From positions 62,001 through 126,000 of the forward strand of contig JANQPL010000001.1 in the NCBI GenBank assembly GCA_028289425.1: 64,000 nucleotides of DNA. The letters run 5' to 3'. Positions 23,915 to 40,668 of this stretch are shown piece by piece; position 1 is the first letter of the stretch, and every line of letters starts with the position of its first letter. Below the pieces are notes generated by a model, which did not search any database, was not told the DNA's origin, and saw only the letters and a program-made list of their open reading frames with translations. Made by a program: the position numbers and the translations under genes. The stretch comes from Alphaproteobacteria bacterium. GTDB lineage: Bacteria > Pseudomonadota > Alphaproteobacteria > JANQMY01.

Positions 23915-25618
23915 CTAGTCGATCCAACCTCTGGGGTTTTCAGTAAGGCTCTCATTCATGGCCTCGATGGTCGCCTTGAGGTCCCTTGTTTTCTTTGGGT
24001 ATCGCCCCTGGAGGTCGTGAGCTTCTCGACCGCGCTGCAGGTCGGTGAGCATCGGGTTAGCAAACGGCGTGAATGCGCTCAAGGGCAACGGATAGAGAAT
24101 TTGGCTAGCCTGCTTCTGTGTTCTCAAACGATATTTGAAACGGCTATCGCGCACTGCCTCAAGCCGGCCATGCCAGGCAGAGAAGTAAAAGAGATGCTCG
24201 TGAGGGGACGCTTTCCGTTCCGAAATCATGGGGAGAAGATTGCGGCCGTCAATCGCCCGGTCCGTAGGCGGATCGATCTCTGCAACACCGAGGACGGTCG
24301 GCAGGATGTCGATATTCATGGCCATTCCGTCCAGGGTTGCGCCTTTGGGCAGTCTTTCAGGCCAAGAAAAAATCCCCGGTACCCGCATGCCCCCTTCGAA
24401 GGTTTCTCCCTTCCGGCCCCTCAGGGGACCGACGCTGCCAAGGTAATCGCCCCCATTGTCACTGGTGACGATCACAAGAGTGTTGTCGCCAAGTCCCTGT
24501 TGTTCAAGCGCCTGCATCACCATCCCCACACTGCGGTCCAGATCTTCGACCACGTCGCCGTAAAGGCCCGCCGCGGAGCGACCCTCAAACGCCGCGTCGG
24601 CGTAGTGAGGCACATGGGGAAAGGTGTGGGCGAGATAAAGAAAGAAGGGCCGCCTATCGGTCTGCTCCAAAAAGGTTACCGCTTCCTGGGTGTAAAGCGC
24701 GGTCAACTTCGTTTGATCCACTTGGTCCGCTGGCACCTCAATTTGTTTCTGGCGGTAGATGTGGAGCGGCGCCATATCGTTGGAAAAATGAACACCGTAA
24801 AAACTTTCAAATCCAAAGTCGTTTGGCAGATGTCCGTCCCGGTCCCCAAGATGCCATTTGCCGATCATGCCCGTGCGGTACCCGGCAGCCGCCAAGATCT
24901 CCGGCAATAGGATTTCATCTTGCACAAGCGCATTGGGATAGCCTTGCACCTTGCGGAAGAGGGCCACGGGGCTGCCTTCCGGAAAGAATACGTGGTTCGC
25001 CGCATGGGCGCGCACCGGATAGCGTCCTGTCAAAAGGCCCGCCCGCGACGGCGTACAGACCGGCGAGGACGAATAGAACTCCGTAAGCTTGACCCCGGTT
25101 TTCGCGACGCGGTCGATCTCGGGTGTCTCGATCAACGCGTTGCCATAGCTCGACAGGTCGCCATAGCCCAGATCGTCGAAGAAAATGACGATCACATTGG
25201 GTGCCCCGTCTGCCGCTGTCGGCACGGCGGCTAGATAATCGCGCTTTTGAGCAAGCCGTTCCGGTGCCGGCGGCACATAGGCCGCCGCTGCCTTGAGCCA
25301 ATGAGGATTGGGGCCCAAGCTGATGGACAACGACTGTCGCTTTCCTTCCGTCACGGTCACAGGGCGCGACGCAGTGGCCAAGCCGAACTGCATCACCTGC
25401 AACAGATACTCCCCGGGCGGAATGTCTGCCAACACGAATGACCCGTCCCTGTCGCTCACCGTACCGCGCAGCGTATCCTGCAAATAGACACGGGCGCCCC
25501 CAAGCGGTTCACCGTTGGGGCCCAAGATCTCACCGCTAATTTCCGCCGCACTGATCGTTTCGGACCGGAATACCAAGCATGCACACATGATCAGTAATCC
25601 CCACAATCTAATTTGCAT
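23915..25618 (-). CDS. Arylsulfatase-type sulfatase with an N-terminal carboxypeptidase-regulatory-like domain
   Basis: A 567-residue exported sulfatase. A signal peptide (1-25) is followed by a ~75-residue Ig-like domain of the carboxypeptidase-regulatory type (about 27-100, with PNGEPLGGARVYLQDT and DGSFVLADIPPGEYLLQV). The type I sulfatase core begins near residue 140: VIVIFFDDLGYGD carries the metal-binding Asp pair, and C188-T-P-S-R is the formylglycine motif. A separate maturase is needed and none is in the window. It removes sulfate from a glycan, inferred from the neighbours. It is the last gene of the TonB receptor-GH3-permease-sulfatase operon, 3 bases after the permease gene. Confidence 0.93.
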   Translation of the reverse strand: MQIRLWGLLIMCACLVFRSETISAAEISGEILGPNGEPLGGARVYLQDTLRGTVSDRDGSFVLADIPPGEYLLQVMQFGLATASRPVTVTEGKRQSLSISLGPNPHWLKAAAAYVPPAPERLAQKRDYLAAVPTAADGAPNVIVIFFDDLGYGDLSSYGNALIETPEIDRVAKTGVKLTEFYSSSPVCTPSRAGLLTGRYPVRAHAANHVFFPEGSPVALFRKVQGYPNALVQDEILLPEILAAAGYRTGMIGKWHLGDRDGHLPNDFGFESFYGVHFSNDMAPLHIYRQKQIEVPADQVDQTKLTALYTQEAVTFLEQTDRRPFFLYLAHTFPHVPHYADAAFEGRSAAGLYGDVVEDLDRSVGMVMQALEQQGLGDNTLVIVTSDNGGDYLGSVGPLRGRKGETFEGGMRVPGIFSWPERLPKGATLDGMAMNIDILPTVLGVAEIDPPTDRAIDGRNLLPMISERKASPHEHLFYFSAWHGRLEAVRDSRFKYRLRTQKQASQILYPLPLSAFTPFANPMLTDLQRGREAHDLQGRYPKKTRDLKATIEAMNESLTENPRGWID

Positions 25619-25621
25619 GGT

Positions 25622-26893
25622 CTATCTCCTGTCCGAACGCAAAACCGAGAGTGCGAAGAAAACGATGTAGCCGTAACACAGCACCGGCAAGAAGAATGCA
25701 ACCGCTATGCTGGTTTCATCAGCGATCGCCCCGGCGATTACCGGAATGACGGCCCCGCCGACGATGCTCATACACAGAATACCCGACCCATGCGCCGTAT
25801 CTCGACCTAAGCCTGCGATACTTAGTGAGAAGATGGTGGGGAAACCGATTGCGTTGAAAAGGCCAACAGCAAGGATTGTCCAAACCGAGAGGGGTCCTCC
25901 GATGACAATCGTTAGCAGGACCATGAGGATCGCCATGCCGGCGGAAACCGCAAGAAGAACAGACGGCGACACCGACCGCATGAGGCCGGCACCGATAAAC
26001 CGCCCCACCATCGCGCCGCCCCAATAGAGACTGACCAGGCTTGCTGCCTGGCTTGCGGACATACCCGCGACGGCCTCTTCGACAAAATAGTTGACTAGGA
26101 AACTCCCGATCGTCACTTCGGCGCCCACATAAACGAAAATCGCGCCAACACCCAGTTTGAGATTTCGATGTTGAAGAGCTCCCCGGTAAGATCCAGTGTC
26201 GGGGCCTATAGCTGCGTGAGAGCTGACGGCATCAACCGGCACCCGCTTAGATACGAATACCATCGCCACGAGGATAAGCATTAGCCCAATGACAATGAAC
26301 GGCTGACGCGCCAGATCCGCACTCAGTGATCGATAATCTTCCAATTGCGCATCAGTCAAAGCTTGTACTTGGTGCACCGGCAAAACGTCTAAACTGAGAA
26401 TCGAGACGGCGCCAACGACCGGCGCCAGCGTTGTGCCAAGGGAATTAAATGCCTGAGCCAATGTTAGGCGGCTTGCAGCCGTCTGAGCAGATCCCATCAA
26501 GACCACGAGTGGATTGGCTGCGACTTGCAAAATTGTGATGCCCGAGGCAAGGACGAACAACGCAAGGACGAAGAGGCCATACACACGATAATCTGCTGCC
26601 GGAACAAATAAGAAGCACCCAATCGCCATCACAGCTAAACCAGCGATCACGCCCATTCGATAGCCGTAGCGCGCAACGAAACCGCCTGCCGGTAGCGATA
26701 CCAAGAAATAGGCCGCGAAAAACCCGAACTGAACAAACATTGCTTGAAAATACGACAGTTCAAAAAGAGACTTCAGGCGAGGGATTAGCAAGTCCACCAG
26801 AACCGTCGTAAAACCCCACATGAAAAAGAGCCCGACGAGCAGTGCAAGCACCAACCGGTTTCGGGCGACGGGAACGGTTGTGGCAACCGACAC
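25622..26893 (-). CDS. MFS sugar permease, FucP/GluP family
   Basis: A 423-residue permease with 12 predicted spans. The segment LVLALLVGLFFMWGFTTVL, then LIPRLKSLFELSYFQA, is the signature start of the fucose/glucose-galactose (FucP, COG0738) family, and GITILQVAANPLVVLMGS with LAQAFNSLGTTLAP confirms it. It would import a monosaccharide across the inner membrane by proton symport. The start is GTG 26893 with GGGGAG 8 bases upstream. It sits 3 bases from both neighbours (GH3 upstream, sulfatase downstream), so it probably imports what the hydrolase releases. Confidence 0.93.
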   Translation of the reverse strand: MSVATTVPVARNRLVLALLVGLFFMWGFTTVLVDLLIPRLKSLFELSYFQAMFVQFGFFAAYFLVSLPAGGFVARYGYRMGVIAGLAVMAIGCFLFVPAADYRVYGLFVLALFVLASGITILQVAANPLVVLMGSAQTAASRLTLAQAFNSLGTTLAPVVGAVSILSLDVLPVHQVQALTDAQLEDYRSLSADLARQPFIVIGLMLILVAMVFVSKRVPVDAVSSHAAIGPDTGSYRGALQHRNLKLGVGAIFVYVGAEVTIGSFLVNYFVEEAVAGMSASQAASLVSLYWGGAMVGRFIGAGLMRSVSPSVLLAVSAGMAILMVLLTIVIGGPLSVWTILAVGLFNAIGFPTIFSLSIAGLGRDTAHGSGILCMSIVGGAVIPVIAGAIADETSIAVAFFLPVLCYGYIVFFALSVLRSDRR

Positions 26894-26896
26894 AGA

Positions 26897-29185
26897 CTAT
26901 TCTCCCCGCAGCACAAATTGAGCGCCAAGATCCGCTTCGGACGAACCCCCGACAAAGACTTCAAACCGACCTGGTTCGACACGCCACGTCATGTCAGGTC
27001 CCCAAAAACCAAGTGCGTGCGGATCGATATCAAACCTGATCGTTCTACTCTTCCCGGGCGCTAGGGAAACTTTCTGAAAAGCCTGCAGTTCACGGATGGG
27101 TCGAGTGACGCTACCGACGAGGTCCCGCACGTATAGTTGCACCACTTCTTCACCCGTTCGATCACCGATATTGGTTAGTGTGACCGATACGCCGAGCGAC
27201 TGATCATGCGCGATGTCCGCCGCATCCAAACGAAGGTCCGTATAATTGAATTGCGTATAACTTAATCCGTACCCGAAGGGGTATTGCGGCTGGGAAGACG
27301 TATCAATGTATCTCGCTTTAAAGCGGTCCGCGCGTTCAGGAACGTCAGGACGTCCTGTATTTTTCCGGTTGTAGTAGATAGGACACTGGCCGGACGCTGT
27401 GGGAAACGTCATGGGCAATTTGGCTGAGGGGTTGTAGTCCCCAAACACGACATCGGCGACCGCATGGCCCATTTGCGAGCCGAGAAACCATGTCACCAGG
27501 ATGGCGTCGGCATTGTCGGCAAGCCATGGGATGGCTAATGGACGTCCATTGCGCAGTAACACCACAATGGGCTTGCCTGAAGCCTTCAATGCTTTGGCCA
27601 ATTCCATTTGTGGTTTTGGAATTGTGATGTCCGCGCGCGACTTGGCCTCTCCGGACATATGCTGCCCCTCACCCACGGCGAGAAGAACAATGTCCGCCTG
27701 TGAGGCGGCCGCAATTGCCTCGTCAATCCCGCCATCGATAGCTTTTTCGATTCCGCTGCCTTTAACGACGATGAGAGAATCCGGGCTCATCAACGCCGAT
27801 CGAATTCCGTCCGCGAGATTCACCGATTCATCATTCCGTCCAAAGATACTCCAAGGCCCATTAAGGTGTTCATTCTCTCGGGCGAACGGACCAATAAGCG
27901 CGAGGCGCTTGATGTCCTTGGCCAGGGGAAGCACATTTCCCTGGTTCTTCAGAAGAACGATTGATCGCCTGCCTGCATCGCGTGCCAGGTCGACAATCGG
28001 TTGGCTGCCGATAAGGGTCTCTTCTCGCTTTTTGTCGAAGTAACGAAAAGGATCGTCAAAGAGTCCAAGGCGAAATTTGTAACGCAGAACGCGTCTGACG
28101 GCGGTATCGATTTGGCTTTCTTGCACACGCCCTTGGCGGACCAAGTCTACCAGATGATCATTATACAGACCACTTTGCATGCTCATATCCAAACCGGCGT
28201 TAAGCGCTAGGCTGGTCGCGTCCTCTTCATCTGCGGCAAATCCGTGAGCCACGAGCTCTAAATCAGAGTTGAAATCGGAAACGACGAATCCATCAAAGTC
28301 CCATTCGTCGCGCAGAATCTGTTTGAGGAGGAACGGGTCGGCTGTCGCCGGCACGCCATTGATTTCGTTGAAAGCCGACATGATGGCGCCGGCACCGGAA
28401 TCGATCGCAGCCTTAAACGGCGGAAGATAGTGTTGTCGCAAGGTCCGTTCAGAAATATCAACTGTATTGTAGTCGAGTCCGGCTATGGCCGCCCCGTACG
28501 CCGCAAAATGCTTTGGCGTCGCAAGCATGGTGTCGAATGACGACAGATCAGCGCCCTGAAAGCCGCGCACGCGAGCCGACGCGAAGAGGCTGTTAAGCAG
28601 GACATCTTCTCCGGCCCCTTCGACCGAGCGGCCCCAACGGGCATCCCGGGAAACATCCACCATCGGCGCGAAGTTCCAACTTATCCCTGCGGCCGTTGCT
28701 TCCTGAGCGGCAGCGCGTGCCGTTCGTTCCGCCAAGGAGGGCTCAAAACTCGCGGCCTCGGCCAAGGGGACGGGAAAGACCGTTCTGAAACCGTGGATCA
28801 CATCCGCCCCGAAGATGAGCGGTATCCCCAGGCGAGATTCGTTGACGGCGACCTCCTGGTTACGCCGCAGCAAATCGACACCAAACCCATTAAATATCCC
28901 GGTCACCTTGCCGGCGCGAATTTCGTCGAAACGTTCCTCTGCGGGCTTGGGCTTGAACACAGGATTCACGGGATCGTGGTTCAAGGCCTCAAATGATGTG
29001 GCATACAGGCTGAGTTGTCCGACTTTTTCCTCCAAGGTCATCCGGCCAAGAAGGTTGTCGATAAAGGTATCCTCGTTCTTCATCGCATCTTCGGCGGCCG
29101 AACTACCGATAAAAGAAAAAGCCGTCACAGCGAACAAGGGAGCAAGCAGTAATTTTATGGCATTGCTCCCCTGCGCTTTCATCAT
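26897..29185 (-). CDS. Glycoside hydrolase family 3 (beta-glucosidase type)
   Basis: A 762-residue exported GH3 enzyme of BglX-like length. A signal peptide (1-31) precedes the (beta/alpha)8 domain with PLIFGADVIHG, PKHFAAYGA, and VVSDFNSDLE carrying the likely nucleophile Asp304. The alpha/beta sandwich domain (with GEGQHMSGEAKSRAD and PIVVLLRNGRPLAIP) and a C-terminal fibronectin-like domain (about 650-760) follow. It releases terminal beta-linked sugars; the exact sugar is unknown. It is the second gene of the operon, 46 bases after the TonB receptor. ATG 29185 is followed by a second Met. Confidence 0.94.
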   Translation of the reverse strand: MMKAQGSNAIKLLLAPLFAVTAFSFIGSSAAEDAMKNEDTFIDNLLGRMTLEEKVGQLSLYATSFEALNHDPVNPVFKPKPAEERFDEIRAGKVTGIFNGFGVDLLRRNQEVAVNESRLGIPLIFGADVIHGFRTVFPVPLAEAASFEPSLAERTARAAAQEATAAGISWNFAPMVDVSRDARWGRSVEGAGEDVLLNSLFASARVRGFQGADLSSFDTMLATPKHFAAYGAAIAGLDYNTVDISERTLRQHYLPPFKAAIDSGAGAIMSAFNEINGVPATADPFLLKQILRDEWDFDGFVVSDFNSDLELVAHGFAADEEDATSLALNAGLDMSMQSGLYNDHLVDLVRQGRVQESQIDTAVRRVLRYKFRLGLFDDPFRYFDKKREETLIGSQPIVDLARDAGRRSIVLLKNQGNVLPLAKDIKRLALIGPFARENEHLNGPWSIFGRNDESVNLADGIRSALMSPDSLIVVKGSGIEKAIDGGIDEAIAAASQADIVLLAVGEGQHMSGEAKSRADITIPKPQMELAKALKASGKPIVVLLRNGRPLAIPWLADNADAILVTWFLGSQMGHAVADVVFGDYNPSAKLPMTFPTASGQCPIYYNRKNTGRPDVPERADRFKARYIDTSSQPQYPFGYGLSYTQFNYTDLRLDAADIAHDQSLGVSVTLTNIGDRTGEEVVQLYVRDLVGSVTRPIRELQAFQKVSLAPGKSRTIRFDIDPHALGFWGPDMTWRVEPGRFEVFVGGSSEADLGAQFVLRGE

Positions 29186-29231: not shown

Positions 29232-31526
29232 CTAGAACCTCAGTGCAACGCTTCCCCCGAAGCGGCGCTGAGCATTTCGCGGGATGATTTGGAAGAACCC
29301 ACCCGGATCATTGATAAAGACCTCACCAATTGTCGCCGCATATGACTTGTCTCCAACGTTTCTGACAAAGAAACTCGCTTCGATGCGATCATTTGGAGAA
29401 ATGACGCCGACAGCCAGGTCGACGAGCGCATAACCATCTTGCACCGTTCCTGGATTCTGATTGATGGCGAACTGAACCTCCGATTGGTAATTCGCGTTAA
29501 CTTGCCCGTATACCCGCGGACCGTCGCCGCTGATCGGCTTTTCATAGCGAGCCTGAAGATTGAACTTCCATTCCGGCGAGTTCGGCAAGCTCCTGCCCGA
29601 AACATCCTGTATGGTGCCTCCGGTCACTGCCATACATCCTTGGGCCGCGGTTTGACCGGCAAAGCACGCTGCATTGGTGAAGGAACTAAAGAACGCATCT
29701 GTAAAGCCGACACCGCCCGTGAACGAGAGCTCGTCCGTCGGGTCCCAAACTGCCGTAAGCTCAACACCTCGTGCAACAGATTCACCGGCGTTCAACAAGG
29801 ATGCCGCAGCCGTCGCACTATTGAACGCTTGGACCTGCAGGTTCTGGAACAGGCTGTAGAAGAGATTCAGATCGATGAAGACATTGCTCCATCCGAATGG
29901 ACTTCCGCGAAAACCAAGCTCGAAGGCGTTGGCGGTTTCAGGGTCGACTGCGCCAGCATCCAACACGGCGGTCGTAATGCCCAAGGTCGCGTCAAATGCC
30001 AGCCCCTTGTACCCCCGGGCGTAGGTGGCAAATGCCGTGAATTCGTCTGTGATATCGTATTGAACCCCAGCACGGCCGATCACTGCAAAGTCTGTTGCTT
30101 CGTCCGATCCTTCAAACCCGTTGAAAACAGCCGTTTCAAAAGAGTTTTCCTCGTAAATAAAACGTATGCCTCCGATCAAAGACAACCGGTCCGTCACACC
30201 AAAGGTGGTGTCACCAAATGCTGAAAGGTTTGTGTTATCGACGTTAAGTGTAAAGAAACTGTCGGTCTCAAACGGGGCAAGACACGGGCTTCCCACAGCG
30301 AGGCCCGCAAAACAAAGTTGAACGTCCCGATCAAAGAATCGATCCGTTTCGTTTCGAAAATAGAAGAGACCGAGTACATAGTCGAACCGGCCGTCGGTAT
30401 TGGATGTCAGGCGAAACTCTTGTGTCACTGTCGATGTCGCTGGAGATGCGCCCTGCTGCAATCCGACAGCACCCGTGACGGGAGCACTGCCTGTCGATCC
30501 GAAGAAGTCCGTATCGCCCAATGTCAGGTTTTGCGACCAATCCCTGTAAGCCGTCAATGAAGTCAGCGTTACCGGACCTAAATCCGCCTGGACCTCGAGC
30601 GACGCACCCCATTGTTCGTAGTCATCAACTTTGTCGATTTCGTTTGAAATGTCCGTGTTGACCGTAGACGGTATAACACCGGCTGCCAGTGTCAGAATAT
30701 CTGTACCCGCTGCCTCCCGTAGCTGAAGATCACAGCAATTGCGGCGTTGCGAAAGATAGTCGCCGCTAATTTTCACATAAACGTTGCTGCCGACATCGAA
30801 ATCGAGTTTGGCGCGCACCCCATAGGACTCCTCGGCACCATCCTCAATGCCGAGAAACACATTGTCATAGTAGTCGCCAAATTCTCGATAAAATCCCGTT
30901 ACCCTGAAACCCATATTGTCGTTAATCGGTCCGGACACGGAAGCATCGACTCGATACTCATCCAACTCGGCGCCTCTGAATTTTAAAGAGGCTTCAAACT
31001 CCTCCGCCGTGTCCTTGGTGATATAGCTGATGACCCCCGCTGACGAGTTCTTTCCGAACAGGGTCCCCTGCGGTCCACGCAGGACTTCAATACGCTCGAT
31101 GTCGGAAAACTCCACAAGGCCACTTCCGTTTCGGGCCAAAACAACACCATCGATAACAAAAGAGACACTGGGCTCGACTGTGACGCTGAAAACACTTGTG
31201 CCAACACCACGGATACGGACGGCTGTACCGTCCAGGCCCACAGCATCCGCAATAGTAAGTGACGGAACAAGCAGCGAAAGATCCTGAACATTATCGAAGA
31301 AGACGCGATCTAGCGCGTCTCCGTCCACGACGTTCACTGCGACGGGCACTTCGAGCAGCGTTTGTTCGCGCCGCTGGGTGGTCACGATCAGTTCATCCAT
31401 CGTTTTTGCCGTACCGGCGCTAGAAGGTTCTGCGCCTTGTGCAAAAACTTGCCCCCCCCACAAGAATGCACATGACAGAGCACCGATCACGGCGGTGCAC
31501 GCACCAATTTGGTTGCTGTATTTCAT
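29232..31526 (-). CDS. TonB-dependent outer-membrane receptor (glycan operon)
   Basis: A 764-residue receptor with a signal peptide (MKYSNQIGACTAVIGALSC, cleaved near VFAQ), a TonB box DELIVTTQR, a plug (ERIEVLRGPQGTLFGKNSSA, ISYITKDT) and a barrel ending in SVALRF. The ATG at 31526 has GGGAGTAGG upstream; an in-frame TTG 102 bases further out would give an unlikely N-terminus. It heads the GH3-permease-sulfatase operon, so it probably imports oligosaccharides produced at the cell surface. The promoter region holds a dyad motif that recurs before the GH97 gene. Confidence 0.94.
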   Translation of the reverse strand: MKYSNQIGACTAVIGALSCAFLWGGQVFAQGAEPSSAGTAKTMDELIVTTQRREQTLLEVPVAVNVVDGDALDRVFFDNVQDLSLLVPSLTIADAVGLDGTAVRIRGVGTSVFSVTVEPSVSFVIDGVVLARNGSGLVEFSDIERIEVLRGPQGTLFGKNSSAGVISYITKDTAEEFEASLKFRGAELDEYRVDASVSGPINDNMGFRVTGFYREFGDYYDNVFLGIEDGAEESYGVRAKLDFDVGSNVYVKISGDYLSQRRNCCDLQLREAAGTDILTLAAGVIPSTVNTDISNEIDKVDDYEQWGASLEVQADLGPVTLTSLTAYRDWSQNLTLGDTDFFGSTGSAPVTGAVGLQQGASPATSTVTQEFRLTSNTDGRFDYVLGLFYFRNETDRFFDRDVQLCFAGLAVGSPCLAPFETDSFFTLNVDNTNLSAFGDTTFGVTDRLSLIGGIRFIYEENSFETAVFNGFEGSDEATDFAVIGRAGVQYDITDEFTAFATYARGYKGLAFDATLGITTAVLDAGAVDPETANAFELGFRGSPFGWSNVFIDLNLFYSLFQNLQVQAFNSATAAASLLNAGESVARGVELTAVWDPTDELSFTGGVGFTDAFFSSFTNAACFAGQTAAQGCMAVTGGTIQDVSGRSLPNSPEWKFNLQARYEKPISGDGPRVYGQVNANYQSEVQFAINQNPGTVQDGYALVDLAVGVISPNDRIEASFFVRNVGDKSYAATIGEVFINDPGGFFQIIPRNAQRRFGGSVALRF

Positions 31527-31932
31527 CCTACTCCCCATCGCTCTTGTTACCCGCATGCGAGCGTTCTTTTGTGCAATTGTCTGCGAGCACGCCTTCACAC
31601 TCGTGTGACTATTTCCTTTTGTGCTCAAGTGAATAATATTGAATGGTTCATTTTATTCAATCCTGAATATTCTTTGTTGAATATTTTTCTGGTCTAATTC
31701 GCCGTTTGTGACAGTTCGGCAACAGTCGAGGCCGCAACAACCCTACAAATTCAGTAGACGGCTCATTACTTGTTGACGACTTTCGCGACTGCGAAACACC
31801 GCACTCGGATAGCTTCGTATTGATGCGACTAGTCGCGAGCACCATTTGCATTCCGTTTCTGTGCCGCTAAGTTAGTGAATCGAGAAATGCATCCTCAGAA
31901 TTGTATTTTGAGTAAATACATCAGGAAGTATT
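31527..31932. other. Divergent regulatory region between TonB receptor and TetR genes
   Basis: This gene-free stretch of about 400 bases is AT-rich over 31600-31700 and contains the dyad listed separately. No small gene with a ribosome-binding site is visible. It presumably holds the promoters of both flanking transcription units. Confidence 0.6.
31654..31669. promoter_or_regulatory. Dyad operator TATTCA-N4-TGAATA upstream of the TonB receptor
   Basis: TATTCA (31654-31659) and TGAATA (31664-31669) form a 16-bp inverted repeat. Further TGAATA or TGAATG half-sites lie at 31630, 31640 and 31678. The flanks CATTTTATTCA-N4-TGAATATT are the same as at 34850-34872. The site is 128 bases upstream of the receptor start and in the region shared with the divergent TetR gene. 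Confidence 0.5.
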
Positions 31933-32538
31933 ATGAGAGCTTCGACCAAGCGCCGACCAACTCAAAAAAGCGAAGTTACACGCCAGAAGCTCTTGGAAGC
32001 GGCGGTAACGTGTTTGTGGAAATACGGTTATGCCAACACGACGCTCGAAACGGTTGCAGCCGAAGCCGGCATGAGCCGCGGTCCGCAACGATACTATTTC
32101 CCGACCCGTATCGATTTGATGCTCGGCGTCTGGAAACATCTTTCAGAACAACTTGTTGAAGATTATTGGGGATTCGATCAACCGGACTTGTCTTCAAGGG
32201 AACGTCTCGACCTGATGATCGATGCTTCGATCAAACGTGCCGGGTCACGAGCTCACACTGCGGAGCTCGAGTTGAAGCTTGCTATTCGTGGCGACTCTCC
32301 ACTGAAATCCGTATTGAGTCCGCTCATCAATAGACGCGAGCAAGACGCCGATGAGCGGTGGGTCAAACTCTTCAAAGATACGGGCCGCTCAAGATCAGAT
32401 CTCATTGCGACACGCTATATGTTGGTTAGCATGGTTCAGGGCTTGGCTATTCAACGGGCAACGGGACGCCCGACTGCGCTCTTAAAACGCATAGAGAAAG
32501 AGCTGCGCGACATTTCCCACGAGTTGATGGGGCTCTAA
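31933..32538 (+). CDS. TetR-family transcriptional regulator
   Basis: A 201-residue regulator with the TetR HTH at about residues 15-65 (TRQKLLEAAVTCLWKYGYAN, TTLETVAAEAGMSRGPQRYY, FPTRIDLM). The C-terminal part is helical with an ADERW motif. It is divergent from the glycan TonB operon and convergent with the GH97 gene. It is the natural candidate to bind the TATTCA-N4-TGAATA dyads before those units, although TetR control of glycan genes is less usual than LacI or GntR control. The ligand is unknown. Confidence 0.88.
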   Translation: MRASTKRRPTQKSEVTRQKLLEAAVTCLWKYGYANTTLETVAAEAGMSRGPQRYYFPTRIDLMLGVWKHLSEQLVEDYWGFDQPDLSSRERLDLMIDASIKRAGSRAHTAELELKLAIRGDSPLKSVLSPLINRREQDADERWVKLFKDTGRSRSDLIATRYMLVSMVQGLAIQRATGRPTALLKRIEKELRDISHELMGL

Positions 32539-32600
32539 AGAAGTTACCGGCTGAGCGTCTCGGTCATGCTGCGCGGACGCGCCAAGAGTTCGTGGAACCA

Positions 32601-34775
32601 TCAGCGGTCTTCCACATGCTCGAAGCGGATTGCCGCGCCTCCGCCTGGCGCCAAAATGAGGTTCAGCATCTCCGTAGAGCTGACGGCCTTCTTTTCAATG
32701 GCGATGTCATACGGAGATGTATCCCAATGAGCATTGTCACCGTCCCGGTAGATGTGCGCCGTGTAGTTCATGCCGTCATCAAGGAAAGTAAGCGGTAACT
32801 TCAATGCTCTCTCATTTTCATCGGTTAGCGCCCCTAAATACCAATCCGCTCCACCCTTCTCTTTGCGTACAAAGACCACAAAGTCGCCGACTTCCCCGGC
32901 AAGGGCCATTGATTGGTCCCAGTCCGTCGGAACATCTTTGATGAACTGAAAGGGCCCCGGTCGCGCGTCATAGTTCTCCGGAAGATCCGCGGCCATTTGG
33001 ATCGGACCGTAGATAACGACATAAAGAGCAAGTTGTTTGGCAAGAGTCGTTTGCACCCTGTTATCTTCATCGCTCCGCCCAAGCTCTTCACTGACAGGCG
33101 GCTTCCTGTTCGGCATCAAGTCGAATATGCCGGGCGTGAAGTCCATTGGACCGGCCAGCATTCGTGTGAACGGCAGAATCGCCGTATGTTCGGGCGGATT
33201 AGGGGGCGTGCCCCAGGCGTTGTATTCCTGCCCGCGTGCGCCCTCTCGAGTCACGGCGTTTGGATATGTTCGCCTAAGGCCAGTATCTTTAACCGGTTCG
33301 TGCGGATTGATACTGATTTTGCGTTTGGCAGCCTCTTTGAGAACCATGAGGTGATGATTTACCGCCACTTGACCGTCGTGCCATTCGCGGCGCGTTATCC
33401 CACCGCTGTCGGTTTTTCGGAGCGAACCTCCGTCAGACACATATCCCGTTTTTGTATGCCGCATTCCATATCGCGCATTGAAATCGAGAGCGGCGTGTAG
33501 CTGTTGTTCGTAGTTTGTAAGGTTGCCAAATGTTTCATGGTGCCCAATGAGCCTCACACCCTTGCTGCGGGCGTAGGCCGCCACGGCTTCAATATCAAAA
33601 TCGGATGTGGGTTGGGTAAAATTGATTTTTGTGCTGATTTCGTGTCGGCTCGCATCCCATCCCGTATTCCATCCCTCGACCAATACGCCTGAGAATCCGT
33701 TCTCCGCAGCAAAGTCAATATAGCGCATCGCCTCTGCCGTCGTCGCGCCGTGATGGCCTCCCCTCTGCCAAAACGTCTTGTCCCGAATATGCATCGCCCA
33801 CCAAATGCCGATGTATTTGCCGGGCTCGACCCAGCTGACATCGCCGAGCGCGTTCGGCTCATTCAGATTGAGAATTAAGTCGGAATTCAAAAGTCCAACA
33901 GCGTCCGCTGAGATCTGGATCGTGCGCCACGGCGTCGTGAATGCCCCTTCTTTTTTTACCAGCGTCCCGTCGGAGCGGGGAGCCAAATCAGCCTTGAACA
34001 CGGCCGGCCGGCGTTGATCAAGGGCCATAGCGGCGTAATCAATAAGCGCGGCCTCATGAATACTGATGTGAATGCCGCTCTGTGTACGAACCGTAAAGGG
34101 AGTATGAACACGATCGATGGATGTAAGGTCCGTTGTCCGGTAGAGGTACTCGTAGCGTCGCCAGTTGCGGCCTGGAATCCACCATGCGGTCGATCCCTTT
34201 GGCAACCGAAATTCCGTCAGTTCATCGACGATACTTAGAGGGCCGTCGGCAAATGCATCCGGAACTTCATATCTGAAACCCAACCCATCGTCGAAGATGC
34301 GGAACCGGACGCCCAACTTATGCGAGGGGGTTTTGTCCGATATGAACCGGACAAAAAGCTCGTTGTGGTGATCGCGGACGAAGCGCCGTTCGCCCCAGGG
34401 CTGTTCCCATGTTGTGTCAGCAGTTCGACGGTTGAAACTTTCGATTTTCATGCCCTCTGCCAGGCCGGGTGTGTTCGCAAACCGCAGGCCTATACGGGAT
34501 GGCCCGATCACTTCGGTGCCCCTAAAGAGCACTTTGTAGATGGGTCGACCGAGGGGATCGACGTCCGCCTGGATCGAAATTTCGCCGTTGGGCGATGAAG
34601 CGGACGTCTCAGCGGCACTCGGGGTCACATACCCCGACAACCACACGCAAATAGCGGCAAAGCAAAGACGGCCCGCGGAATGTCGCGCGGTGCTCGATTT
34701 TCTTTGTGGAAGAAATTGGGAAGCGGAGCCGGCCTCGGACCTCAGCTTCAGGCCACCAAGTCTCTTTTGAGACAC
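32601..34775 (-). CDS. Glycoside hydrolase family 97 (alpha-glucosidase/alpha-galactosidase type)
   Basis: A 724-residue exported enzyme. An N-terminal signal anchor (LCFAAICVWLSGYVTPSAAE) follows a ~35-residue basic leader. The GH97 N-terminal beta-sandwich (about 60-300, with GIGxRF-type GLRFAN and RRFVRDHHNELFVRF) precedes the catalytic barrel: VEPGKYIGIWWAMHI, GFSGVLVEGWNTGWD, GVRLIGHHETFG, and a C-terminal sandwich ending NLILAPGGGAAIRF. GH97 contains inverting and retaining members and I cannot decide which this is. The GTG start at 34775 has GGGGGGA upstream. It is transcribed apart from the nag genes, with its own dyad operator. Confidence 0.9.
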   Translation of the reverse strand: MSQKRLGGLKLRSEAGSASQFLPQRKSSTARHSAGRLCFAAICVWLSGYVTPSAAETSASSPNGEISIQADVDPLGRPIYKVLFRGTEVIGPSRIGLRFANTPGLAEGMKIESFNRRTADTTWEQPWGERRFVRDHHNELFVRFISDKTPSHKLGVRFRIFDDGLGFRYEVPDAFADGPLSIVDELTEFRLPKGSTAWWIPGRNWRRYEYLYRTTDLTSIDRVHTPFTVRTQSGIHISIHEAALIDYAAMALDQRRPAVFKADLAPRSDGTLVKKEGAFTTPWRTIQISADAVGLLNSDLILNLNEPNALGDVSWVEPGKYIGIWWAMHIRDKTFWQRGGHHGATTAEAMRYIDFAAENGFSGVLVEGWNTGWDASRHEISTKINFTQPTSDFDIEAVAAYARSKGVRLIGHHETFGNLTNYEQQLHAALDFNARYGMRHTKTGYVSDGGSLRKTDSGGITRREWHDGQVAVNHHLMVLKEAAKRKISINPHEPVKDTGLRRTYPNAVTREGARGQEYNAWGTPPNPPEHTAILPFTRMLAGPMDFTPGIFDLMPNRKPPVSEELGRSDEDNRVQTTLAKQLALYVVIYGPIQMAADLPENYDARPGPFQFIKDVPTDWDQSMALAGEVGDFVVFVRKEKGGADWYLGALTDENERALKLPLTFLDDGMNYTAHIYRDGDNAHWDTSPYDIAIEKKAVSSTEMLNLILAPGGGAAIRFEHVEDR

Positions 34776-34854
34776 TTCGTCCCCCCGCTTGTCTGTACTG
34801 CCATGCTGCAGATCAACGCTTGGCGCTACGTAACAATACGCACCAAGCGCATTT

Positions 34855-34870
34855 TATTCAGATATGAATA
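34855..34870. promoter_or_regulatory. Dyad operator TATTCA-N4-TGAATA upstream of GH97
   Basis: TATTCA (34855-34860) and TGAATA (34865-34870), with flanks nearly identical to the site at 31654-31669 (19 of 23 positions shared, differing only in the central four). It is 80 bases upstream of the GH97 start, between it and the end of nagA. A common regulator for the TonB operon and GH97 is likely. Confidence 0.5.
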
Positions 34871-34904
34871 TTTTTAACAGTGAAATCCGTTCGTCTACGT
34901 ATCT

Positions 34905-36071: not shown

Positions 36072-37132
36072 AATGTTTCAGTCACCTTTGAAAGGTGGGG
36101 TGGATAATCGGGATTCCTCGCGCGGGCCACGGCGAGCGCATTCACCATGCGGTAGAACGACTGAAGTTGAGCGATGGGCACTAGTGCGGGATGTCCGTCA
36201 ACTGTGGGCAGATGATCCGTATGCTCCTCATTGATGTCCGCGCCCGCAATTAGAACCCTCGCTCCTATGGATGTTAGCTTGCGCGCCGCCTCCAGCGACG
36301 CGACACGCGTGGCATCCGCTTGAACAAAAATGAGGGCGGGGAATCCATCCTGTATGATCGCTGCAGGTCCATGGAAAATTTCCGCAAGACTGATGGCCTC
36401 TGCATGAAGCCCGCAGGTTTCCTTGAACTTTAGAGCCGCTTCCTGAGCAGCGGCCAGACCAATACCGCGTCCGGCAACGAAAAGACCGGCCGCGTTTGAA
36501 AGCACATCCTCGACGGCTGACCAGTCCAGCTCCTGCGCTTGGCCTAACAGATCAGGTAAGTCTTTGAGAGCGCGTTGGAGAACGGCATCTTGCTCCCATG
36601 CCGCCACTAACCGCGCCAGCGCCGCGAAGGAAGCCAGGCATGATTTAGATGCGGCGATACTGACTTCAGGTTCCGCGCAGAGCGGTACGATCCAGTCGGC
36701 CATCTGAGCAAGCGGAGAGTCGACCACATTAATGAGAGCAATGATCTCGGCGCCACCCGCTTTGACACCCTCTACAGCAGCAAGGATGTCCGGGCTGGCG
36801 CCCGATTGGGAAATCACAAAACAAACGGCTTCGCGAAGATCCGGCTTTGCACCATAAAGGGATCGTACCGAGGGCGCGAACGACGCCACTGGTATGCCAA
36901 GACGGGTTTCGATCAAGTATTTTGCGTAAGTGGCGGCGTGATCTGAGCTACCGCGCCCGATCGTCAGGACCAGTTTAGGCGCGGCACCGCGCAACCTGTC
37001 GCCAACATCTTTGCATGTTCGCCCAAGTTGCACCTCCTGTTGCGCGATGACCTTCGGCGTTTCCGACAGTTCTGCGAACAGCCGTGTTTTTTCGGCCGGT
37101 TTTTCGTCAGTCGACAAAACAGTGCCCATCAT
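36068..37132 (-). CDS. nagB-II: Glucosamine-6-phosphate deaminase, SIS type (NagB-II)
   Basis: A 354-residue protein with two SIS domains, like the isomerase half of GlmS but lacking the glutaminase domain. The first contains TIGRGSSDHAATYAKYL and VISQSGASPDI; the second KETCGLHAEAISLAEIFHGP. Proteins of this kind next to nagA convert GlcN-6-P to fructose-6-P and replace classical NagB. The AgaS-like alternative is less likely given the nag context. The start ATGATG overlaps the GntR stop codon. No classical NagB gene is in the window. Confidence 0.9.
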   Translation of the reverse strand: MMGTVLSTDEKPAEKTRLFAELSETPKVIAQQEVQLGRTCKDVGDRLRGAAPKLVLTIGRGSSDHAATYAKYLIETRLGIPVASFAPSVRSLYGAKPDLREAVCFVISQSGASPDILAAVEGVKAGGAEIIALINVVDSPLAQMADWIVPLCAEPEVSIAASKSCLASFAALARLVAAWEQDAVLQRALKDLPDLLGQAQELDWSAVEDVLSNAAGLFVAGRGIGLAAAQEAALKFKETCGLHAEAISLAEIFHGPAAIIQDGFPALIFVQADATRVASLEAARKLTSIGARVLIAGADINEEHTDHLPTVDGHPALVPIAQLQSFYRMVNALAVARARNPDYPPHLSKVTETL

Positions 37133-37946: not shown

Positions 37947-38001
37947 ATACCACTATAATACCAAAAATTCAATACTTGCCATATTGGTATCTATTTGGCA
38001 C
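37947..38001. promoter_or_regulatory. Mirrored direct-repeat operator between GntR and PTS genes
   Basis: ATACCA occurs at 37947 and 37958 (11 bases apart). On the other side TTGGTAT (37984) and TTGGCAC (37995) are also 11 apart in the opposite sense. The whole is an inverted arrangement of two direct-repeat pairs, in the region expected to hold the divergent nag promoters. It is a good candidate for the NagR-like binding site. Confidence 0.55.
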
Positions 38002-38103
38002 TATGTCACATATTCGACGTGCCGGCGGTGGCTTTCTGGTTGGGATTTTGGCGCGCTGGCATTGATCACATCCTCGAACAGCAACGCAGAATTGAGGAGA
38101 GGT

Positions 38104-40668
38104 GTGGGGTCCATCCCTGGGAGTCAATCAACGGTAGCGATAGGCGAAACGCTGGTGATCGGCGCTCCGCTCGCCGGATGGACGTTCGAATTGAGCGACA
38201 TACCGGACGAAGCCTTCGCCTCCGGCGCACTTGGGCCCGGTGTCGCCATCGATCCGACTGCTGGAATGGTGTCTGCCCCGTGTGCAGGATGCGTCGTTGC
38301 CGTGGCTAAGACAAGACACGCATTTACGATCCGCGCCGAGAACGGTGCCGAAATCCTCATCCACATCGGCCTTGGGACCGCCGCATTGCGGGGCAAGTTC
38401 TTTCAGACCCAGATTGCCCAAGGCGACATGATCTCCGCCGGCGACATACTGGCGACGGTCGATCTCGATGGCCTAGCGGAGCAAGGGGTCTGCTTGTTGT
38501 CGCCGCTGGTTGTTACCAACAACGATGACTACGACGTAAAAGTCTCACCAGCCAGTACTCGTTTGGACGCCGGCGCACATGTAATGACCGTGGTGGCCCA
38601 ATCGGTTATCACAAACGGTGACCATGGATGTGTTTGGGTCGGTGGCACGCCGGCGACGCAATCGCACCGACTGCAACTTGAACACGGACTGCACGCACGC
38701 CCCGCCGCAAGAATCGCCGATGCGCTGAAGGGTCTCAATGCCAGTGTCCAAATTTCACACGAGGAACGCTCGGCCAATGCGAAGAGCGTTTCCTCTTTGA
38801 TGGCGCTGCACGCACCGTTCGGCGCGCAACTTGAGCTGTCTGCGTCCGGCCCCGACGCTAAAGCAGCAGTAGAGGCCGTCGGCAAAACCCTGACAGAAGA
38901 TTCAACAGAACACGGACGGCCGCCAACAGACCAATTGGCCTCATTCATCGAGCCGCCCGATTCGGATCCTAATGCAATAAAAGGAACGGGCGTATCGCCG
39001 GGAATTGTTATCGCGACCGTTGGTCGTTTCGAACCGACCGAAGTCACGATCCCGCAGCATGTAGGTTCCGCCGACGAAGAGACGGCTCGGCTCCGGCGAG
39101 CCATCGCCGCCGTCATTGCATCGCTGGATAAGATCGTAAGCAAGGCAAATGCGGCCGATGAAACTACTACAATCTTTATCGCGCATCGCGCGCTGTTGCA
39201 GGACCCGGTTGTGATAGAGGGGGCGAATGCCCAAATCGCCGCCGGCATGAATGCGGGTCAGGCATGGCGCCACGTCATGAGCCGGCATGGTGAGGCGATG
39301 ACCGCCGCCTCTCATGCACACGCTGCTGAAAGAGCGGACGATTTCCGCGACCTCGAGCACCGGGTACTCGCCTGCCTATACGGGGAAAACGATGAAGAAA
39401 ACCATTTAGCTGCCAACACTGTTGTACTGGCAGCGGACGTGACTCCCTCGCAGATGCTTGACCTGGGGCGACAAAACATCGCCGGCATCGCGCTTGCTAA
39501 AGGCGGACCCACGTCGCATGCGGCCATTTTAGCAAACGCGATGAAGGTACCCGCTGTGTTCGGCCTGGGGCCTCAACTGCTGAATGTTGCAGATGGTGAG
39601 ACCGTCATATTGGATGGCGGTCAAGGTCTGCTGATCCCGTCCCCGGACAGCGAGCGAATCGCTATGGCGCGACAGGCGATAGTGCGTGAAGAGCATCAGC
39701 GGGAGGCCCCCACAAAAACGGACGGCGACTTAACCAAAACGATTGATGGCATCGCGATTAAGGTCTGCGCCAATGTGGCTTCCCTTGAAGAAGCAACGTC
39801 ATCCGAGATTTACGGTGCCGACGGAGCTGGCCTGGTACGGACTGAGTTCCTGTTTCTCGACAGACAAACATCGCCCAACGCTCAGGAGCAAGCGGCAATG
39901 TATCGCCAGATCGCCGATGCATTACCGGAGAAACCGGTCGTCATTCGCACGCTGGACGTTGGTGGCGACAAGTCGGTTGCGTTTTTGGAGACGGCGACGG
40001 AACCCAATCCGGCGCTGGGCGTACGCGGCATCAGAACATCCTCGGCACGACCCGATCTGCTTGCAACTCAGCTTGAAGCAATCGCCGCGGCCAATAGGTC
40101 AGGTCAACTCTCGGTGATGCTGCCAATGGTAACCTCGGTGGAAGACGTGCGTCGAGCCCGTGAGGTTTTGGACCGGTTGACGCCTTCAACGGCATCGGCT
40201 CCGCCGTCACTCGGCGTGATGATTGAAACCCCCGCGGCGGCGCTTATCGCGCCGCAACTCGCAAACCACGCCGACTTCATGTCGATCGGCACCAATGATC
40301 TGGCTCAGTATGGCCTCGCCATGGATCGCGAACACCCCGATCTCGCACCCGAAGTGGACGCCCTACATCCCGCAATCCTGAAGCTGATCGAGATGACCGT
40401 GACGGCCGGAAAAGCCCACACCTGTCCGGTCAGTGTGTGTGGCGCGATTGCCTCGGATGCGACTGCGCTCCCCGTTCTCCTGGGCCTTGGTATCACCAAT
40501 TTGTCCGTGGTCGGAGCACGCGTGCCCGAAGTCAAGGCGGAGATTCGCCGACTAAAACTGGAAGACTGCCAACCCGTCGCCCAATTTGCCCTCGCCATGG
40601 GTTCGGCGAAAGAGGTTCGCGCCCTACTCGGATGGTTCCGTCAACAACACACTGGCAGCGTCAAATGA
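38104..40668 (+). CDS. PTS EIIA(Glc-type)-HPr-EI fusion protein
   Basis: An 854-residue phosphotransfer fusion. The N-terminal EIIA-Glc-type domain (about 1-150) has DEAFASGALGPGVAI and ILIHIGLGT with active His87. The HPr domain (about 185-265) has GLHARPA with His197. Enzyme I (about 293-854) has GGPTSHAAI with His472, then LVRTEFLFLDR and GTNDLAQY. It carries phosphate from PEP to the EIIB domain of the permease downstream, so the pathway needs no separate EI or HPr. GTG 38104 is the likeliest start, just after GAGGAGAG; an earlier TTG at 37984 would run through the operator. The next gene overlaps by 4 bases. Confidence 0.93.
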   Translation: MGSIPGSQSTVAIGETLVIGAPLAGWTFELSDIPDEAFASGALGPGVAIDPTAGMVSAPCAGCVVAVAKTRHAFTIRAENGAEILIHIGLGTAALRGKFFQTQIAQGDMISAGDILATVDLDGLAEQGVCLLSPLVVTNNDDYDVKVSPASTRLDAGAHVMTVVAQSVITNGDHGCVWVGGTPATQSHRLQLEHGLHARPAARIADALKGLNASVQISHEERSANAKSVSSLMALHAPFGAQLELSASGPDAKAAVEAVGKTLTEDSTEHGRPPTDQLASFIEPPDSDPNAIKGTGVSPGIVIATVGRFEPTEVTIPQHVGSADEETARLRRAIAAVIASLDKIVSKANAADETTTIFIAHRALLQDPVVIEGANAQIAAGMNAGQAWRHVMSRHGEAMTAASHAHAAERADDFRDLEHRVLACLYGENDEENHLAANTVVLAADVTPSQMLDLGRQNIAGIALAKGGPTSHAAILANAMKVPAVFGLGPQLLNVADGETVILDGGQGLLIPSPDSERIAMARQAIVREEHQREAPTKTDGDLTKTIDGIAIKVCANVASLEEATSSEIYGADGAGLVRTEFLFLDRQTSPNAQEQAAMYRQIADALPEKPVVIRTLDVGGDKSVAFLETATEPNPALGVRGIRTSSARPDLLATQLEAIAAANRSGQLSVMLPMVTSVEDVRRAREVLDRLTPSTASAPPSLGVMIETPAAALIAPQLANHADFMSIGTNDLAQYGLAMDREHPDLAPEVDALHPAILKLIEMTVTAGKAHTCPVSVCGAIASDATALPVLLGLGITNLSVVGARVPEVKAEIRRLKLEDCQPVAQFALAMGSAKEVRALLGWFRQQHTGSVK

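Follow-up and report, generated by a model that had tools for sequence, protein, structure and literature searches.

The window, that is, the whole stretch of 64,000 nucleotides analysed, carries a minus-strand operon with the gene order TonB receptor, GH3 enzyme, MFS transporter and sulfatase, and, 406 bp ahead of the receptor start codon, the divergently oriented gene of a TetR-family regulator (Table 1). The tetR gene converges in turn with a GH97 gene, to which a GlcNAc cluster (NagA, NagB-II, GntR, PTS) adjoins. Three perfect inverted repeats, called here dyads A, B and C, share the core TATTC-N6-GAATA and flank tetR: A and B stand before the receptor operon (site 1), and C is located in the 129-bp gap after nagA, ahead of the GH97 start. 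The other regulators among the scanned window ORFs, namely AraC (7933), LysR (49408), an HTH-cupin protein (63173) and a second TetR (17884) beside an MMPL transporter, are all encoded outside this locus. A fused EIIA-HPr-EI phosphotransferase protein (37984-40668) is encoded beside an EIIBC gene and the NagA/NagB-II/GntR cluster. An inverted repeat, CGCTTGG...CCAAGCG, was also noticed by eye in the sequence at 34795-34850, in the presumed GH97 leader.

Table 1. Genes and predicted regulatory features of the locus (window coordinates).
Feature	Position	Strand	Remarks
Sulfatase with N-terminal CarboxypepD_reg-like domain	23915..25618	-	
MFS sugar transporter, GluP subfamily, close to FucP	25622..26893	-	307.5 bits, cut-off 202.55
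GH3 enzyme, BglX-like	26897..29185	-	781 bits, cut-off 666
TonB-dependent receptor	29232..31526	-	Start taken at ATG 31526 behind GGGGAG; ORF open to TTG 31628
Wider dyad ATTGAAT-N10-ATTCAAT	31638..31661		Overlaps dyad A; extra half-sites
Dyad A, TATTCA-N4-TGAATA (core TATTC-N6-GAATA)	31654..31669		Inside 23-mer 31649-31671; predicted operator of the TonB-receptor operon
Dyad B, AATATTC-N6-GAATATT	31666..31685		Second tandem operator (predicted); centre 14 bp from that of dyad A
Separate perfect dyad TGTATTT-N5-AAATACA	31902..31920		7-bp arms; 12 bp before tetR start; unrelated to the TATTC dyads
tetR, TetR-family regulator (201 aa)	31933..32538	+	Pfam TetR_N; best candidate binder
GH97 enzyme	32601..34775	-	GTG start behind GGGGGGA
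Dyad C, TATTCA-N4-TGAATA	34855..34870		Inside 23-mer 34850-34872; predicted operator of GH97

Dyads A and C lie within two intergenic 23-mers, CATTTTATTCAATCCTGAATATT at 31649-31671 and CATTTTATTCAGATATGAATATT at 34850-34872, both of which read CATTTTATTCA-N4-TGAATATT. An earlier note on this DNA gave the second position correctly and began the first at 31650, although it starts at 31649. Its description of the two sites as identical except for the central four bases, and as preceding the TonB operon and GH97, agrees with the alignment (19 of 23 bases identical, with all four differences in the centre) and with the gene layout. The 60-bp flanks of the 23-mers are unrelated (17/60 and 19/60 identical bases), so these sequences are not the product of a recent segmental copy. 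TATTC-N6-GAATA, which all three dyads share, is a better core than the 12-base pattern; its tandem copy in dyad B matches at 31668-31683. The same note had mentioned extra half-sites at the first site, which understated their number: besides dyad B and the wider dyad, six GAAT/ATTC half-sites fall in 31631-31682 against a mean of 0.47 per 60 bp, a density that is the window maximum, tied with a stretch near 27777.

We scanned the whole genome (5,417,975 bp, or 5.42 Mb, in 20 contigs) for these patterns. The exact core TATTC-N6-GAATA occurs three times, each time in this locus, and once in the reversed control. Between 2.0 and 2.5 occurrences, approximately, are expected by composition for such a 10-base core and the number itself is unremarkable; the clustering of the three cores within 3.2 kb, on the other hand, has a probability of about 1e-6 for random points. 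A search confined to the window found the 12-base pattern, at up to two mismatches, 3 times against 1.2 expected, which is not significant; the decisive result is that of the genome-wide search. The genome scan for TATTCA-N4-TGAATA proposed in the earlier note returned exact matches only at the two reported sites; when one mismatch was allowed, the tandem copy at 31668 joined them, together with four other places in the genome (L040-L043), of which L040 retains the ATTC-N6-GAAT core. With up to three mismatches, the 23-mer was found genome-wide only at the two reported places (none in the reversed control), and an exact 21-mer form appeared once outside the own genome among 385 genomes of the class, in a genome of 1.2 Mb. 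The dyad is therefore not a frequent one elsewhere, as it would have to be to speak against a common regulator. Confinement of all three perfect cores to the locus indicates that they are not the motif of a global regulator and argues for a local one. That the shared sequence is instead a promoter element or a chance likeness of AT-rich promoter DNA seems very improbable: GC content around site 1 is indeed 27.5% locally, and the shared CATTTTA corresponds to a -10-box-like TAAAATG on the transcribed strand, but a promoter element should recur genome-wide, which this sequence does not, and the identical bases form a symmetric dyad around a free centre, the pattern to be expected where a dimer binds.

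Membership of the product of tetR in its family is indicated by a TetR_N domain (PF00440) at residues 20-63 (32.3 bits, cut-off 24). Its C-terminal domain shows a weak BetI-type match only, and assignment to the BetI subgroup fails in both models (TetR_C_6, 15.2 bits with a cut-off of 27; NCBIfam BetI, 49.3 bits with a cut-off of 201.3). As is characteristic of the family, there is a divergent candidate target gene (the receptor gene) and a palindromic site that the predicted target promoters share and to which it is confined. The gap of 406 bp exceeds the 200 bp below which, in the accessible text of PMC3511530, regulation of the divergent gene is predicted, a predictor and not a definition of the family.

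A paralogous TetR/TonB receptor/sulfatase module is present on contig C15 of the same genome and has a counterpart in the genome G001. In both genomes analysed from the order (n=2), a TetR 37-38% identical to that of the window diverges from a receptor (36%) and a sulfatase (43%), with a GH3 gene nearby, across tetR-receptor gaps of 219 bp (C15) and 203 bp (G001). When the tetR-receptor stretches of the two modules (174 and 188 bp) were compared, the longest common block was of 30 bp, and this block contains the perfect dyad ATTCATCACTGATGAAT (ATTC-N9-GAAT), which has the TGAAT half-site and the orientation of the window dyads with an N9 rather than an N6 spacer. The modules resemble the window locus in gene order, in their homologous proteins (36-43%) and in the TGAAT dyad of the gap, and differ from it in the dyad spacing and in that no GH97 was found alongside. 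In the C15 module, an MFS_2 transporter and an FGGY kinase replace the GluP-like transporter of the window. The C15 module spans L057 838-13396, where two TetR genes, the TonB receptor, the sulfatase, the MFS_2 transporter and the GH3 gene are found, and its neighbours are the genes of the FGGY kinase and of an aldose epimerase.

The three TATTC-N6-GAATA dyads are probably operators of the TetR protein encoded between them, in a system of local inducible repression. The single regulator put forward in the earlier note, perhaps the TetR at 31933, gains support, at the level of sequence, from the confinement of the cores, the placement of tetR and the arrangement of its relatives with a TGAAT dyad. 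It is unlikely that some other regulator, whether the GntR/UTRA protein at 37129, whose gene lies about 2 kb from dyad C, or one encoded elsewhere, binds the TATTC dyads while TetR uses TGTATTT-N5-AAATACA. The latter is a perfect dyad nearer to tetR than the TATTC dyads and could be the own site of tetR or that of some other regulator; nevertheless, no second match with fewer than three mismatches exists inside the window, so that it is not common to the target promoters, and the paralogous TetR loci conserve the TGAAT dyad and not TGTATTT. As for GntR, no TATTC dyad was found near the gntR, nag and PTS promoters in the window and exact-core genome scans, and its gene sits in a nagA/nagB operon like that of NagQ, the motif of which is a tandem repeat according to the accessible part of PMC5343134, whereas the site described here is an inverted repeat.

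We infer that TetR binds these sites, that it represses and does not activate, and that a sugar acts as the inducer. Without inducer, TetR dimers would occupy both tandem operators before the TonB-receptor operon and the single operator before GH97, holding down both promoters. Release of TetR by a degradation product of the imported glycan would then switch on uptake, GH3, transport, sulfatase and GH97 functions together. The tandem operators at site 1 might impose a tighter control on the uptake operon than on GH97, and the combination of sulfatase, GH3, GH97 and sugar transporter suggests a sulfated glycan as the substrate. The 406-bp receptor-tetR gap calls for caution regarding an action of TetR on the receptor gene, since, in the data accessible from PMC3511530, of the four TetR-family regulators whose gaps were above 200 bp, three left the divergent gene unaffected and the fourth, AtrA, activated it. 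This last case, together with a promoter search that gave no good promoter for GH97, would suit a TetR that acts on the same operators as an activator or dual regulator. We consider this improbable, because most of the studied members of the family are repressors in that same source and because the operator overlaps, and does not precede, the predicted -35 box at site 1. The prediction is weak: the only sigma-70-like promoter found there, with TTGAAT (31660-31655) as a -35 box inside dyad A, does not rise above chance expectation (1 match against 2.6).

In comparison with known systems, repression by TetR at these sites would resemble the TetR/tetA paradigm, as presented in the accessible text of PMC3511530, in its divergent regulator gene, palindromes in the gap and more than one operator. 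It departs from that paradigm in its gap (406 bp against less than 200 bp), in its targets, which are glycan uptake and hydrolysis genes, and in the extra operator past the regulator gene, before GH97. The proteobacterial sugar regulons of NagQ/NagR and of LacI-family proteins (PMC5343134, PMC4052901, in the parts accessible) are alike in having a local regulator of sugar catabolic genes, and in two Xanthomonas species the NagR regulon takes in TonB receptors (PMC5343134); however, those regulators belong to the GntR or LacI families and recognize other motifs. A TetR-family regulator of glycan uptake is not described in the accessible portions of PMC5343134, PMC4052901 or PMC3511530, and a literature search with most subscription papers outside its reach gave no description of this system. 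The sites are real and local, and the proposed gene switch is ordinary in kind and new in its particular members. If our interpretation is true, a TonB-receptor/sulfatase/GH97 glycan system from a sparsely sampled lineage (two genomes of the order analysed) gains an operator and a regulator that can be tested; the general picture of gene regulation is left unchanged. The window module and its paralogue would also lend themselves, as a natural pair, to work on how TetR regulators keep their targets separate after duplication. It is possible, though doubtful, that the duplicated modules keep the TGAAT half-site and are insulated from each other by the different spacers of their operators, N6 in the window and N9 in the paralogue, two sulfated-glycan uptake systems being switched separately in this way.

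The TetR protein was searched for in 2 genomes of the order, in 385 genomes of the class (E-value limit 1e-28) and in 398 genomes of the phylum (E-value limit 1e-24), and no close orthologue was found; relatives reached at most 37-38%, the best of them being 36% identical, or 37-38% over the best 165 residues. Because of this, direct footprinting of the window operators did not succeed. Two further loci with matches to the N-terminal part of TetR only were found in the search of genome contigs. The relatives of the GH97 enzyme (49-52% identity, L052-L055) had neither a TetR relative nor a TATTC dyad nearby. We looked for the dyads in 34 upstream regions of TetR relatives, comprising 15 loci, the C15/G001 pair and 17 plasmid loci. 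ATTC-N6-GAAT was present in three of them (L080, L081 and L092, with L080 and L092 from one genus) and occurred three times in the other 262 kb of the relatives' loci (Fisher p = 0.0015), while ATTC-N9-GAAT was present in two, which are the C15 and G001 modules. The remaining 29 regions had neither dyad, and these include all 17 plasmid loci examined, which represent 17 of the 20 rows listed out of 96 records. All three N6 cases read CATTCATGAATGAATG, which can equally well be taken as an N2 dyad; for this reason, and given the shared genus of L080 and L092, the panel is weak support. One N12 match among the TetR relatives (L098) was disregarded. A locus with another TetR relative carries tandem dyads of the form TTAGGTA-N4-TACCTAA (L009 1114-1150), and dyads of the TTTACATACATAC type are found in L010 and L011.
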